From: Daucus carota subsp. sativus
Taxonomy: Eukaryota > Streptophyta > Magnoliopsida > Apiales > Apiaceae
DNA: 64,000 nucleotides
Assembly (NCBI RefSeq): GCF_001625215.2
Contig: NC_030381.2
Coordinates: 35,462,689-35,526,688, forward strand
Reading direction: 5' to 3'
Shown here: positions 6,234 through 53,548 of the stretch, in pieces
Layout of the letters: every line of letters starts with the position of its first letter
How positions within the stretch are numbered: the stretch's first letter is position 1
Position numbers and translations under genes: made by a program
The notes under the pieces: generated by a model
What the model saw: only the letters and a program-made list of their open reading frames with translations
Databases searched by the model: none
What the model was told of the DNA's origin: nothing

Positions 6234-8205
6234 TCAACGTTTTGGTACCCAAATTTTGTTGGGTCCAGCAGTGTTAGTTGATAAAACATATAGAACATTA
6301 AGATCAGATTTCTTGATCCACATTTGGACCACTTTAGAACTCTTCTTCCATGTTCTGCTGGTCTTATCAGCATACTGTCCCGGAGCTGTCTTCTGTCTGT
6401 TTCTGTTGTCAGCATACTGCCAGTGAGCTGATTTCCTTCTCCAGCTTGCTGATTGAGTATTCTTCATTGGACAATTATTAGCAAGATGGCCCTTCTTTCC
6501 ACACTTGTGACAAGTCACCCAAGGCATGGCATAATTGTATGGAATGCCATTTTTCCCTTCATATTTCATTGAAGAGGTGGATGTAGAAGCTGCACCAATG
6601 CCTCCTTTATCATGAGAACCTTTAGCTTGTTTCATCATAGATTTGAGACTTTCTTCTCCTTGAACAAACTTTCCCATGGCTTTCTGAAGGTTTTTAACTT
6701 CTTGCTCCAATGACTTGATCTTTTCAGCTTGAATAGAGATTTCGGCTAAGCTTTGGGATTTGCTTAACTCGAATGCCTCCAAGCTTGCATCCTTAGCTTT
6801 AAGATCTGCTCTTAGCGAGCTGAGTTCCTTCATGAGTGTATCATTCCTTCTTTGGATTTGCATGTTGTTCCCTTCAAGTTGTGAGATTTGTTCCTTGAGA
6901 GTAGCAATGATTCCACTGCTTGCCTTGGCACTCTTTTCATTCAAGAAATCACCTATGACTTTCTTCAAATGAACATTTTCTTTCTCGAGCTCGTAGTTCT
7001 CATTCTTTAGATCAATGAGTTCCATAATTGATAGACAACTCTTATCCTGCATGGTTAGTTCACAAGATGTTGTATCAATAGAATGTAATTCAGAATTAAT
7101 AGAATGTACCTCACTATTAGTCTCTGAATCCGAATCGGTTGTCTCTATTGAGCCATCGAGACCAACAAGAGCCAAGTTAACCATCTCATCACTTGAAACA
7201 TCAGAAGCTGATTCATCCTCATCATCACTCCATGTGAGAAGTGCCTTTGATTTCTTTTTGTTCTTGTAATCAGCTTGCTGTTTAGGCTGCTTAGACTTGT
7301 TTTTCAGCTTGTAGCAATCCCTTTTGAAATGTCCTTTCTTGCCACATTCGAAACATGCATCATCTTTTGGATCTTTCTTTGCACCAAAGGCTTTGCCCTT
7401 TTCTCTTTTCATCTTATTCTTCTTTTCGATCATTCTCTTGATTTTTCTGGACATAAGAGCTAGATCCTCATCTGATTCTGTTTCCTCATCTGATTCCAGC
7501 TTGCTGACAGAGGAGTGCAGTGCAAGATTCTTCATTTTCTCTGTTGGCAGCTTGCTGCTTTCTGAGCTGTTAGCTTCAATCTTAGCTTCAAATTGTTCCA
7601 ACTCAGCAAATATAGCCAGGTGATCCATAGTATCAATGTTGAGAGCTGACTCCAATGCTGTGACCTTGGCACCATATTCGAACGGAACTGCATTTAGAAT
7701 ATTCATGTTGATTTCCGATTGAGGAATCTTTTTGCCAAGTCTTTCAAGGCTGTTAAGAGTGACTTGGAATCTAGCTTGGCTTTCACGAATGGATTCTCCC
7801 TTCTTGATAGCGAAGCTTCCAAATTCTTTCATAAGCTTTCCGAGCTTGACTTTCTTTAATGCCTTTGAGCCTTCGTGATATGTCTCCAATGCATCCCAAA
7901 TTTCCTTTGCTGTTTTGAGAGGATGAGACCTTGTCATATTCAGCTTGATTCAACCCATTGATTAATGTACTCCTTGCTTTTCCATTGGCAGCAACCTTTG
8001 ATAGCTCGTCCGCTGTGAGAACATCAACGTCCTTGACTTTGCCATCGCTATCACGATATTCATAAGGACCTCTTTGCACAACTCTTTGCATTAGGGGATC
8101 TCTGGATAGATGAGCCTCCATTTGGCCTTTCCACCAATTGTAGTTGTCAGAACCCGTGAGGAGAGGAGCTCTAAAATCGGACTTTCCCTGAAAGTTATCA
8201 GCCAT
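6234..8205 (-). pseudogene. gag: Copia gag, frameshifted near its N-terminus
   Basis: ATG at 8205 follows the primer-binding site by about 45 bases and opens a UBN2/gag-like N-terminus (LLTGSDNYNWWKGQMEAHL). The gag match leaves that frame near 7915-7925 and continues one base over (KTAKEIWDAL onward) to a TGA at 6234-6236, which looks like a one-base insertion. The long part has two CCHC knuckles, CFECGKKGHFKRDC and CHKCGKKGHLANNC, separated by roughly 270 residues of Glu/Lys-rich predicted coiled coil, a Sirevirus-type layout. Gag should package RNA and build the particle; as read, no full-length Gag can be made without recoding. An assembly base error is an alternative explanation for the shift. 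Confidence 0.85.
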
Positions 8206-17033: not shown

Positions 17034-17636
17034 CTAAGAACAAGTAACGGTAGCATAACCGGTGGTCATGCCAGTGTAATCAATAGTGTACTGGTAATTG
17101 CAATTACCGCAATCATAACTAATCAAATATCCATAAGCAATCTCAGCCATTTGAATATTTCCGCACCTTGGACCATTAGGATTTGGCATTGAATACGAAC
17201 CACCTCCACCTCGGCCACCACTTGCATTACCACCATGTCTAGAACCCCTTCCACCATGACCTTCTCGAGGCCTCTTTCCATGACTACCCGGTGTTCCTCC
17301 AGGATATCCACCTGCACCCCCAGCACCTCCTCCAATTCCCCCGCCATTGCCTCCACGGCCGCCCCAGCCAGGTTGTCCAGGTGTTCCTCCCGGATATCCA
17401 CCACCACCTCCTCCAGCATAGCCAGCACACCCACCCGCACCACCACCAGGACCTCCCCCATTCCCACCACAACCTCCAAACCATCTCGGTTTCGAACTCT
17501 CAACTTCAGCAGCCGTGGCCTTACCATCTTTCTTAGACTCCAACACATCATCATTCACCACTGCATTCGCCAAAACTCCATTGACTAACAAGATTACAAA
17601 GATCACACAACAATGAACAACGCTAAGCCTCTTCAT
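17034..17636 (-). CDS. Secreted glycine-rich protein
   Basis: Intronless 200-residue protein. I chose the ATG at 17636 rather than the in-frame ATG at 17669 because it opens directly into a signal peptide (MKRLSVVHCCVIFVILLVNG, likely cut before residue 25) and lies about 70 bases from a TATA box. A short acidic/lysine stretch is followed by a Gly-rich region (about residues 50-145) with PGGTPG repeats and a few Cys, then a non-repetitive C-terminus (from about residue 150) with five Cys (RCGN, DCGNCNY, TVTCS). Plant glycine-rich proteins of this build are cell-wall or apoplastic structural or stress proteins; the exact role is unknown. The Cys-containing C-terminus suggests a folded, disulfide-bonded tail. 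Confidence 0.85.
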   Translation of the reverse strand: MKRLSVVHCCVIFVILLVNGVLANAVVNDDVLESKKDGKATAAEVESSKPRWFGGCGGNGGGPGGGAGGCAGYAGGGGGGYPGGTPGQPGWGGRGGNGGGIGGGAGGAGGYPGGTPGSHGKRPREGHGGRGSRHGGNASGGRGGGGSYSMPNPNGPRCGNIQMAEIAYGYLISYDCGNCNYQYTIDYTGMTTGYATVTCS

Positions 17637-32727: not shown

Positions 32728-32951
32728 TAATTTATGTTAATAGATATATAAAGATAAAAATAGCAAAAATAATTAAACAGACAGATTAATTATATTAATT
32801 AATTAATATAGATACATTAATTGTGCTTAATTAAGTTTATTATTATGAATTAAGTATTTATATATAGAGTAATTTGTAAAAACAATCACTTTCTTAAACA
32901 AAAACCCAAAAACACGGCCAAAATTCTTCTTCTGCAACCCCAACCTTTCAG

Positions 32952-32960
32952 TATAAATAG
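32952..32960 (+). promoter_or_regulatory. TATA box of the extended PR-10 gene
   Basis: TATAAATAG, 142 bases before the ATG, giving a leader of about 110 bases ending in an A-run. Confidence 0.75.
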
Positions 32961-33101
32961 ATCCTCTCATACTCTCACGTTCAAACACGAAAAATATCTT
33001 CCAAATCTGTTGTGTGTTTTAGATTGAGTACCTGTGAAGTACTCCGTGAACAAATTCTTGTGTCGAATTTTCTTTAATTCAAAAAAAAAAATACTATAGT
33101 G

Positions 33102-34071
33102 ATGTTTTCCTCTGCTAGTTCATTGAACCAAGTGGTCATGCATTCTTCTAAATCTCCTGCTCTTCAGGCTCCAAGTTTCCGAACATACACTACTCCTGCT
33201 TTCATCAAATTCCAGCACAAAAATCTCTTCAAGCCATCTCTTCCGAATCTTCACTTTTGCAAGGCTTCAAGTCCTGTCCAATCAGTAGAAATCAAGAATG
33301 AAATCACCAAAAATGTGGAGGGACATTCTACTGTCACAGCAGCTCAGATGTACAAGGCCATGTTTCTTGACATGGACGTAGTTATTCCTCGAATTTTACC
33401 CCAGCTCATCAAATCCATCCAAGTCCTTGAGGGTGATGGTGGTGTTGGTACCATCAAGTACCTTACTTACGGGGAAGGTAACAATTAACTAGATTTTATC
33501 AATTTCGGGAAAAATCCGTTAAGAAAAACATTTATTTGTGACTCGATCAGATCCTCGGTATCAAATGTCAAATTGTAACTTATAAGGGTGGGTGTTAGAA
33601 CTTAGAATAATATATGATCCTGGTAAGCCCTCCTCTTAACACCACCTTTAGATTTTGGGAGAATTGATCACTTAACAAACAGTCAGTGGAGGTGCTAAAA
33701 AATTATGCCTGATAATATTGTAGTTTTTTTGGGACTTATGAGTAATGTGATATGGATTAATGTTTGGATAAATTTAATTACTTGCAGCGGTGAAGGCCAC
33801 AAGCATGAAGCAGAAGATAATCATAATGGATGAGGAGGCAATGACATACAGTTACATTGTGATCGGAGGTGATATTTTGCCGGAAAAAGTCGAGTCGGTC
33901 ACTAATCATTTCACAGTTGTGCCTACTGATGATGGAGGTTGCGTTGTGAAGTTGAGTGTAGTGTTTACACCAGTTGCTGGTGAGATGGTACCGGAAGAGT
34001 ACATTAAGGAAAGCATTGCCCAGTCGTTTCAGGTATTCAAGGCTACTGAAGCTTACATCCAAGCTGATTAA
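33102..34071 (+). CDS. PR-10/Bet v 1-like protein with a transit-peptide-like N-terminal extension
   Basis: Exons 33102-33477 and 33788-34071 (canonical PR-10 intron position, GT-AG) encode 219 residues, about 60 longer than normal. The Bet v 1 domain begins near residue 68 ([18 protein letters not shown]), has the glycine-rich loop GDGGVGT and ends [11 protein letters not shown], all intact. The extension ([16 protein letters not shown]...) has no Asp or Glu in the first 60 or so residues, is rich in Ser/Lys/Pro/Phe and ends in a plausible cleavage region (HFCKASS), the signature of a chloroplast transit peptide. The extension is in the same exon as the domain, so it is not a splicing artefact, and a TATA box with an ordinary leader precedes this ATG. 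Typical PR-10 proteins are cytosolic. Plastid import is inferred, not shown. Confidence 0.9.
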
Positions 34072-42450: not shown

Positions 42451-42458
42451 TATAAATA
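42451..42458 (+). promoter_or_regulatory. TATA box, PR-10 pair gene 1
   Basis: TATAAATA, 116 bases before the ATG. Confidence 0.75.
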
Positions 42459-42566: not shown

Positions 42567-43142
42567 ATGGGTGTAGTAACCAGAACTGCGGAGGCACGTT
42601 CGTCAAAAATGACAGCAGCTCAGCTGTACAAATCCATGTTCATTGACATGGATAAAGTCATGCCTAAAATTTTACCCCAGATCTTCAAGTCCGTTCGACT
42701 CGTTGAAGGTGACGGCGGTGTTGGAACAGTCAAGGAAATCACTTACGGTGAAGGTATATACTCTCTCTATTTTGAGATATAGATAATTTGATTTTTTGAT
42801 ACGTGTTTTCAAGTAAAATCATTCTTTTTACACCTATTATAATAATTATTTGCAGCTGTGAAGGCGACGACTATGATCCAGAAACTAGTTGAAATGGATC
42901 CCGAAGCAATGACATACACAAAAGTGATCATCGGAGGTGACGTGTTGATGGGCACACTGGAATCAGTCGCTTATCATTCGGTAGTTGAGTCGAGTGATTC
43001 GGGAGAGTGTGTTGTCAAGTTGACTGTTGTGTTTACACCGCTGGCTGGTCAAGAGGTATCGGAAGACTACATTAAGGATTCCATTGCTCAGTCGTATCAG
43101 ACATTCTATGCTGTTGAAGCTCACGTTCAAGCCACTTATTAA
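42567..43142 (+). CDS. PR-10/Bet v 1-like protein, tandem pair gene 1
   Basis: Exons 42567-42753 and 42856-43142 (GT-AG, canonical position) encode 157 residues. Starts MGVVTRTAEARSSKMTAAQL; glycine-rich loop GDGGVGT; C-terminal helix DSIAQSYQTFYAVEAHVQ. The fold predicts a small cytosolic ligand-binding protein; PR-10 genes are typically induced by pathogens, wounding or drought, and many are pollen-related food allergens (family knowledge). Nearest relative is the copy 3 kb downstream, differing at about five residues. The N-terminal strand is unusually charged (RTAEARSSK) for the family, shared by both copies. Confidence 0.95.
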
Positions 43143-45441: not shown

Positions 45442-45449
45442 TATAAATA
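45442..45449 (+). promoter_or_regulatory. TATA box, PR-10 pair gene 2
   Basis: TATAAATA, 117 bases before the ATG, in the same context as gene 1. Confidence 0.75.
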
Positions 45450-45558: not shown

Positions 45559-46141
45559 ATGGGAGTAGTAACCAGAACTGCGGAGGCACGTTCGTCAAAA
45601 ATGACAGCAGCTCAGCTGTACAAAAACATGTTCATTGACATGGATAAAGTCATGCCCAAAATTTTACCCCAGATCTTCAAGTCCGTTCGACTCGTCGAAG
45701 GTGACGGCGGTGTTGGAACTGTCAAGGAAATCACTTACGGTGAAGGTATATACTCCCTCTATTTTGAAATATGGGTGATTCGACTTTTTGATACGTGTTT
45801 CTAAGTCGTTAGTAAAATCATAATTTTTACACCTATTATAATAATTACTTGCAGCTGTGAAGGCGACGACTATGATCCAGAAACTAGTTGAAATGGATCC
45901 AGAAGCAATGACATACACCAAAGTGATCATCGGAGGTGACGTGTTGATGGGGACACTCGAATCAGTCGCTTATCATTCGGTAGTTGAGTCGAGTGATTCG
46001 GGAGAGTGTGTTGTCAAGTTGACTGTTGTGTGTACACCGCTTCCTGGTCAAGAGGTATCGGAAGACTACATTAAGGATTCCATTGCTCAGTCGTATCAGA
46101 CATTCTATGCTGTCGAAGAGCACGTTCAAGCCACTTGTTAA
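45559..46141 (+). CDS. PR-10/Bet v 1-like protein, tandem pair gene 2
   Basis: Exons 45559-45745 and 45855-46141 encode 157 residues, almost identical to gene 1: the differences I count are S to N in the first helix (LYKNMF), F to C and A to P around VVCTPLPGQE, A to E and the last residue Y to C in the C-terminal helix. Two changes create cysteines, one in the strand before the last loop and one at the very end. Intron lengths are 109 and 102 bp and highly similar. The frame is intact, so the gene is likely functional and the duplication young. Confidence 0.95.
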
Positions 46142-52333: not shown

Positions 52334-52341
52334 TATAAATA
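52334..52341 (+). promoter_or_regulatory. TATA box of the Api g 1-like gene
   Basis: TATAAATA, 102 bases before the ATG. Confidence 0.75.
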
Positions 52342-52435: not shown

Positions 52436-53548
52436 ATGGGTGTCCAAAAGACTGAGGTTGAGGCTCCTTCCACCGTGTCAGCAGAGAAAATGTATCAGGG
52501 ATTTCTCCTTGATATGGACACTGTTTTCCCCAAGGTTCTTCCTCAGCTTATCAAGAGTGTCGAGATTCTTGAGGGCGATGGTGGTGTTGGAACCGTCAGA
52601 CTCGTCCATCTTGGCGAAGGTATATAACCATATATCCGCTCCTCATTTTAACAGTATTGTTTGTAAATTTCATATATATGAAAAAAGGATTTTCTATGGT
52701 GTGCCCAAGGGCACACAATAGTCCCTAATTTCAATAAAAATAGCTCTTTTTGATTGGTGGATGAATAATAGTTGAGAATGGCCCCCTGCATTCACATCAA
52801 CTCCACCAATCAGAATAGACCATTTTTATAGGATTTAGTGATTATTGTGTGCCCTTGGGCACACATTAGAAACACCGTACTAAAAAATATTAAATGTGAT
52901 GTATTATTATTATTATCATCATTAGAATTAATGATAGACAATGTTGGAAATAGTATAAAAGTTAGATTGAACTGATAAGAGAAGAGAGATATTATGAGAC
53001 ATTTTATTTGATAAACAAGACTGTTAAAATGGAAACGAGAGAGCAATTTCTTGTCACTTTTGCTACCTCTACAGAGTAACTGAATTTAATGTGATAGGAC
53101 CAATAGTGCTCTTTTGTACGAATAGTTTGGCTCGTTTACACCCAAGATTACTCATGTCTTTTCGTAATCGTAAGAAGCCTATTTTATGAGATTGCCTGTG
53201 GCATTCAGATTGTCTAGTGTTGTTGTTTTGTATTTAAGCTAATTGACATACGATCGTGAACATGCAGCAACTGAATATACCACAATGAAGCAAAAGGTAG
53301 ACGTAATCGACAAGGCCGGATTAGGCTACACCTACACCACCATCGGAGGTGACATCCTCGTGGAAGGACTCGAATCCGTGGTGAATCAATTCGTTGTTGT
53401 GCCAACAGATGGAGGCTGCATTGTGAAGAACACCACCATTTACAACACCAAAGGCGATGCTGTGCTCCCCGAAGACAAGGTGAAGGAAGCCACCGAAAAG
53501 TCTGCCCTGGCCTTCAAAGCTGTTGAGGCTTACCTCCTAGCAAACTAA
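52436..53548 (+). CDS. PR-10 protein, Api g 1/Dau c 1-type allergen homologue
   Basis: Exons 52436-52619 and 53268-53548 (GT-AG, canonical position) encode 154 residues. From memory the sequence is nearly the same as celery Api g 1 isoform 2: [20 protein letters not shown], loop GDGGVGT, middle [18 protein letters not shown], end [11 protein letters not shown]. Cytosolic ligand-binding PR-10 protein; birch-pollen-related food allergen in this family by homology. The 648-bp intron is much longer than in its neighbours because it contains a palindromic MITE (52688-52880) and extra sequence. Codon use is more GC-rich at third positions in exon 2 than in the other PR-10 genes, compatible with high expression. 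Confidence 0.96.
52688..52880. mobile_element. Palindromic MITE (GTGTGCCC family), copy 2, in a PR-10 intron
   Basis: TTTCTATGGTGTGCCC at the left and GGGCACACATTAGAAA at the right; each end contains the palindrome GTGTGCCCAAGGGCACAC or its variant. Confidence 0.8.

Follow-up and report, generated by a model that had tools for sequence, protein, structure and literature searches.

A carrot PR-10 gene with a conserved N-terminal extension, a putative plastid transit peptide that resembles translated PR-10 promoter DNA

Introduction

Why does a carrot PR-10 gene encode some 60 residues ahead of its Bet v 1 domain, and from which DNA did these residues come? PR-10 proteins are abundant food and pollen allergens, and their role in the plant is still debated. 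Most of them are described as proteins of 155-163 residues found in the nucleus and cytoplasm (PMC10169677). A preliminary description of the gene, made from its sequence, read the additional residues as a chloroplast transit peptide. We analyzed the gene, hereafter gene A, within 64 kb of Daucus carota subsp. sativus C1 (35462689-35526688); this whole stretch is called the window, and positions below are counted within it. The reading that best explains the results as a whole, to which we give a probability of just under 60%, is that gene A encodes a plastid-addressed PR-10 precursor whose extension derives from a doubled promoter. The promoter origin is the unexpected part, and was absent from the earlier reading.

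Results

Gene A joins an acid-free extension to a Bet v 1 domain

The features of gene A are as follows.

32952..32959, plus strand: TATA box (TATAAATA) of the present (distal) promoter, 150 nt upstream of the ATG; the motif also occurs in paralogues B, C and D
33102..33477, plus strand: exon 1, 376 nt, start of the 219-residue protein
33102..33266, plus strand: putative transit peptide, residues 1-55, with a predicted cut after Ala55 (between HFCKA and SSP) placed by eye; homologous extensions in P0002, P0003 and P0006
33478..33787, plus strand: intron, GT...AG, 310 nt, after base 1 of the Ala126 codon
33788..34071, plus strand: exon 2, ending in TAA, with the remainder of the Bet v 1 domain

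Spliced translation gives the 219 residues that the preliminary description had announced. It had also reported one exon joining about 60 acid-free residues, ending in HFCKASS, to a complete Bet v 1 domain with its intron, and a TATA box before the ATG; all of this holds, Asp and Glu being absent from residues 1-62. Pfam Bet_v_1 (PF00407) matches residues 73-216 with 67.8 bits against a curated cut-off of 22.4. The glycine-rich loop GxGGxG reads GDGGVG at carrot residues 111-116 and GEGGVG in celery, and the predicted structure of the Heracleum homologue has the Bet v 1 fold with its long C-terminal helix. Gene A is a PR-10 / Bet v 1 gene by its domain, while its 219 residues, outside the 155-163 taken as the length criterion of PR-10, and the conserved extension make it a variant. 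We treat it as a new targeting variant among PR-10 proteins, the plastid targeting being putative. Upstream, a stop nine codons before the ATG closes the frame, and no ATG was reported within 200 nt of the start at 33102. An Rfam scan of the 64-kb window at gathering thresholds found nothing.

The composition of the extension is by itself uncommon, not unique. In the window, 136 frames begin with ATG and stay open for 62 codons or more. Four of them are acid-free over those 62: one is gene A, and the other three are nested in a single Ser/Thr-rich frame at 17235. When the ATG requirement was dropped and 18063 stretches of 62 codons were sampled, 13 of them combined an open frame with a basic, Ser/Thr-rich sequence free of acidic residues. 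Ahead of the start codon of other carrot PR-10 genes, the frame stays open for 1-44 codons in 26 upstream regions (one gene counted twice) and for 0-44 in eight more, again with one gene twice. The long Ser/Thr-rich frame (17235-17588, plus strand, beginning MSRTPSTMTFSRP), acid-free over its first 62 codons, may be the antisense strand of a coding sequence or of repetitive DNA.

The extension is conserved in three further database records

Among eight database matches, the extension is carried by P0002 from Heracleum sosnowskyi (76% identity to gene A over 100%), by P0003 from celery, Apium graveolens (73% over 100%), and by the contig protein P0006, whose frame appears to continue into the intron. 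Judged by coverage, by an alignment of 37 rows and by inspection of 14 sequences, no other match covering the extension occurred among 45 matches or among 120 listed of 263, and no carrot protein with the extension was among the matches listed in three database searches. Identity to carrot is 50-55% over the extension and 82-87% over the remainder of exon 1. Met1, Met13, the motif L42-F43-K44 and the C-x-A-S-S end are invariant in all four extensions. Loss of the extension in orthologues had been named beforehand as evidence against a transit peptide; the three homologues that cover the region all retain it, and they support the earlier description of a conserved, transit-peptide-like extension on a PR-10 protein. 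An assembly artefact was dropped as an explanation, homologous extended proteins being present in other species. Heracleum and celery belong to the apioid superclade and carrot to Scandiceae, so a single origin of the extension would predate the split between these groups.

P0047 is a 94-residue frame on a 928-base contig whose first residue is the old PR-10 Met. The extension may be absent from it, the record may be truncated, or the gene caller may have chosen this start. Two PR-10 records, P0082 and P0103 (the latter from Eucalyptus globulus), have other upstream frames before an intact MG start, probably from read-through of the leader. An annotated extension by itself hence proves little.

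Translated PR-10 promoter DNA resembles the extension

The window also holds unextended PR-10 paralogues, and the sites of gene A that correspond to their promoters and start codons can be placed by comparison.

32882..33101, plus strand: distal promoter and 5' leader of gene A, resembling the promoter and leader of B and C; its translation NTAKILLLQPQPFSINRSSHTLTFKH resembles the orthologue extension HTCKSHALQPKQFSKNRTPAIINLKH
33182..33190, plus strand: counterpart in gene A of the TATA position of other PR-10 genes, lying 112 nt ahead of the former start codon, within codons 27-30 (RTYT)
33294..33296, plus strand: former start codon column of gene A, AAG (Lys65) where other PR-10 proteins have Met, by alignment
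42567..43139, plus strand: paralogue B, unextended PR-10 (MGVVTRT), TATA at 42451 (-116); end approximate
45559..46135, plus strand: paralogue C, unextended PR-10, TATA at 45442 (-117); end approximate
52436..53545, plus strand: paralogue D, unextended Pet c 1-like PR-10, TATA at 52334; end approximate
22477, minus strand: paralogue E, unextended PR-10

For a comparison at the peptide level, 220 nt of upstream DNA were translated in three frames and scored against the extensions of P0002, P0003 and P0006. The highest scores came from C (48.3), the distal promoter of gene A (44.3) and B (42.0), followed by D (35.0), and 581 random 220-mers of the window, taken outside the surroundings of A, B and C, scored at most 34. 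B and C are near copies of each other and hence not independent witnesses. None of 22 other carrot PR-10 upstream regions was significant in this test (best 11 of 200 shuffles), and neither was any of eight further ones (best 22 of 200). For the distal promoter of A, 0 of 1000 unconstrained shuffles did as well. With the TATA box fixed and its flanks shuffled the counts were 0 for C, 0 for B, 1 for A distal and 6 for D, each of 1000; with the TATA box masked the test was weaker, at 7, 25, 9 and 9 of 1000 in the same order. One frame upstream of C reads ILHVHQIGALGPPHLSINRCSSARIFTHANLFLISCVLHI and then a stop, and resembles the extension; against the Heracleum extension the upstream DNA of C aligns in a single frame over 47 columns with one stop, with a score of 52 where shuffles average 24.9 (0 of 400). 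Matches to carrot's own extension peptide are weak (B 29 of 400, C 11 of 400), so the strong scores come from the orthologue peptides. At the peptide level the resemblance is specific: it singles out B, C and the promoter of gene A, and D follows. A likeness of the extension to the translated promoters of these three PR-10 genes is thereby supported (STATISTICALLY).

The tests at the DNA level are mixed and not specific (counts are again out of the shuffles made). When sequences were anchored on the TATA box and the box itself left out, the extension gave 0 of 1000 against B and 12 of 1000 against C, while the distal promoter of A gave 0 of 1000 against C and 8 of 1000 against B. The distal promoter and the extension of gene A, compared with each other, are marginally alike (32 of 1000 anchored, 80 of 300 local). 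Local comparison of the extension gave 2 of 300 for B and 29 of 300 for C in one test, and 4, 3, 17 and 186 of 500 for B, C, D and E in a second. The leader of A after the distal TATA box gave 0 of 200 against C and 2 of 200 against B. Similar values were obtained with other PR-10 genes: upstream regions of L032, L033 and L035_3082 gave 0, 1 and 0 of 200 against C, and one other gene, sampled twice, gave 1 and 3 of 200 against A distal. In comparisons of leaders with the coding extension, the counts of 200 were 0 for L019_7073, 1 for L026_9512, 4 for B, 6 for L019_4659, 13 for D and 63 for C. The leader of L019_7073, an Api g 1-like gene on C8, thus comes ahead of B and C against the extension, which points to a wider kinship of promoters or to a limit of the test. 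Similarity in these DNA tests may partly reflect a shared leader composition or such wider kinship. What carries the promoter-origin reading is therefore the peptide test, together with the TATA spacing and the old start codon now inside the frame. D was not counted as a witness of promoter homology; its peptide counts are 6-9 of 1000, but its anchored DNA comparisons with the others gave 742-953 of 1000 (local D comparisons: 0 of 500 against C, 162 of 500 against B).

A TATA-like box lies at -79 to -119 in 21 of 26 listed carrot PR-10 upstream regions (one gene counted twice); in eight further ones, also with one gene twice, it lies at 96-119 nt in three and at 130 in one. The residues of the extended proteins at the position matching this TATA box are RTYT in carrot, SKNR in Heracleum, NTSR in celery and SINK in P0006. 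The old start column holds Met in celery P0003 and in P0006, and Lys in carrot and Heracleum.

The phylogeny favors a gain of the extension

A tree was built from 33 hand-picked rows, 30 of them without the extension, with P0006 left out and the root placed at the midpoint. The three full-length extended proteins lie on one side of a branch (99/92); B and C form their sister group (100/100), and the PR2 pair comes next (99/93). PR2, the nearest outgroup, has its TATA box at -119 and 0 open codons before its start. Together with this position of the TATA box, the placement in the tree makes a gain of the extension from promoter DNA simpler than its loss in B and C. The old start Met retained in celery and P0006 points the same way.

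The converse polarity, with an extension ancestral to A, B and C that was lost in B and C while a TATA box re-formed in the former coding exon and translation returned to the old start, would account for the single-frame alignment of the upstream DNA of C with the Heracleum extension, interrupted by one stop over its 47 columns. We consider it unlikely: it needs an extra step on the tree, and the TATA boxes of B and C stand at -116 and -117, where most listed carrot PR-10 genes and PR2 (-119) have theirs, a position at which re-formation would be improbable.

Composition fits a possible plastid address

The four extensions have a net charge of +4 to +7, 18-22% Ser plus Thr, 0-1 acidic residues and 0-3 Arg, and residues 1-60 of the predicted Heracleum model have a pLDDT below 50. 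In composition the extension is more like a plastid transit peptide than like an ER or a mitochondrial signal, and its putative destination is the plastid. An ER signal peptide was rejected for want of a hydrophobic core, the best 15-residue Kyte-Doolittle mean being 0.43 in carrot and 0.37-0.87 across the extensions, as judged by the usual threshold for such a core.

A mitochondrial presequence, or one serving plastids and mitochondria alike, is another improbable reading. The extension is basic and acid-poor, as such a presequence would be, and carrot residues 1-18 show some amphipathic moment (1.09 on the Kyte-Doolittle scale), but this moment is smaller in the orthologues (0.57-0.81), and Arg is scarce (0-3), with Lys and Ser predominating. 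An end of the form C-x-A-SS, cut after the Ala, is typical of plastid cleavage sites, and we count it against a mitochondrial presequence.

Did the address come from another gene? Donation of a transit peptide by the gene of another plastid protein, through exon shuffling, is known, as is de novo origin (both are described in PMC10375062, which cites Liu 2009 and Wu 2017 for the former). Such a donor, or unrelated upstream DNA, would leave the likeness to promoters a matter of composition, as the unspecific DNA-level tests would allow. Against this, the extension and the domain share one exon with no intron separating them, and the peptide test is specific to B, C and A's promoter and then to D. 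Either origin seems quite unlikely to us.

The open frame is probably kept by selection

Whether an open frame could have survived by drift was gauged by neutral simulation on an assumed tree matched to the observed identities of the extensions. With 0, 0.03 or 0.08 indels per substitution, all four frames stayed open, started and in frame in 3.0%, 0.55% and 0.08% of runs; these values rose to 7.8%, 2.75% and 0.53% when the divergence was set to 0.7 of the matched one. On a star tree, they were 0-0.2% with indels and 0.6-5.8% with substitutions only. Conservation of the frame favors selection, not overwhelmingly. Depletion of acidic residues was set aside as proof of selection: totals as low were reached in 26-46% of the open neutral cases on the assumed tree and in 18-58% of cases in the star-tree set, so that neither result is significant.

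These figures bear on a decidedly unlikely reading, in which the upstream ATG is unused, transcription begins inside exon 1 or the frame is due to chance, and the product is a cytosolic PR-10 of the ordinary kind. In its favor, the matches listed include no extended carrot protein, P0047 starts at the old Met, and the mildest simulation keeps the frames by chance in up to 8% of runs. Against it, the old Met is gone in carrot and Heracleum, leaving an extension-free form to start at Met83 or later, inside the domain; a start at Met13 would retain most of the extension. Moreover, Met1, the frame and C-x-A-SS are kept in the three Apiaceae proteins and in P0006.

Discussion

A plastid-addressed PR-10 precursor, with an extension from a doubled promoter, could have arisen and could work as follows. 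Translation would begin at 33102 and yield a PR-10 precursor whose probable fate is import into plastids. Its first 55 residues or so would form an unstructured, basic, Ser-rich transit peptide that passes the TOC/TIC machinery, and a cut near C-x-A-S, between Ala and Ser, would leave a stromal PR-10 of about 164 residues. By analogy with the ligand binding of PR-10 proteins in general, some small hydrophobic compound made in the plastid would be bound or carried in its cavity, itself hydrophobic. Such a location may also imply the role that the preliminary description put forward, at precursors of isoprenoids or phenylpropanoids.

The extension would have arisen in an ancestor shared by carrot, Heracleum and celery, out of non-coding sequence belonging to the same gene family. 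We propose that a PR-10 core promoter and leader were doubled, leaving two copies about 230 bp apart, either by a local duplication or by a deletion that fused two neighboring genes. The distal copy would now supply the present TATA box (32952) and leader, and with them the transcript start. The proximal copy would have lost its promoter function and gained an ATG, to be read as codons through the old start codon. Promoters of the B and C type would then be relatives of both promoter copies of gene A. Taken further, the locus may exemplify a plastid transit peptide made from a duplicated core promoter, with the old TATA position, leader and start still recognizable: celery-type copies, in which the old start Met survives, may yield both plastid and cytosolic PR-10, carrot and Heracleum only the plastid form, and tandem arrays may in this way re-address a ligand carrier. 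This wider proposal is tentative, and we hold it at somewhat less than even odds.

Norcoclaurine synthases carry an N-terminal signal peptide with a hydrophobic core that leads to the ER. They share with gene A a Bet v 1 domain and a targeting extension, which is a putative one in gene A, but the latter has no hydrophobic core, and the match between them is weak (E about 2e-6 over 91 residues). The known PR-10 proteins of Apiaceae (Api g 1, Dau c 1, Pet c 1 and PR-2-like) begin at MG and have about 154-160 residues, whereas the conserved extension of gene A adds about 64 residues, and the carrot and Heracleum proteins no longer have Met at the former start.

Members of the superfamily have been linked to plastids before. 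Major latex proteins (KIROLA) are reported from the tomato stromal proteome by mass spectrometry (PMC10493611); they belong to the Bet v 1 superfamily but to its MLP subfamily, and that report's account of them describes no cleavable transit peptide. For durum wheat PR10, WoLF PSORT predictions are given as mainly cytoplasmic, with the chloroplast among several compartments, and no transit peptide figures in that account (PMC11597350). Organelle addresses made from a gene's own upstream DNA are known as a class (PMC10375062, PMC7237471); no ancestral promoter is named as the source in these sources' accounts of de novo transit peptides, whereas in gene A a second core-promoter copy, complete with its TATA position, seems to have been the source. 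The authors of the preliminary description were not aware of any plastid PR-10 of this type. Among the titles and abstract openings listed from the open-licence PMC literature, we likewise found neither a plastid PR-10 with a transit peptide nor a transit peptide made from a promoter.

If this reading is true, the plastid address of one PR-10 copy would narrow the candidate ligands to a defined set, in a family whose function is debated. It would also provide a targeting peptide traceable to identifiable regulatory DNA, and the intermediates found across living Apiaceae, with the old Met kept or lost, would make the order of the steps testable.

Remarks on individual records

Three further observations concern annotation. 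DCAR_0102594 (P0005), which matches gene B, is without the residues GE at the exon junction when compared with its near copy P0004, suggesting a misannotated splice site. A PR-10 copy on C4 (L022, about 6619 to 6800) has two stops just past its start (after MGVTS) and is probably a pseudogene. P0091 and P0104, two Bet v 1 proteins encoded on contigs of 550 and 656 bases, are recorded under Klebsiella pneumoniae and probably represent plant contamination.
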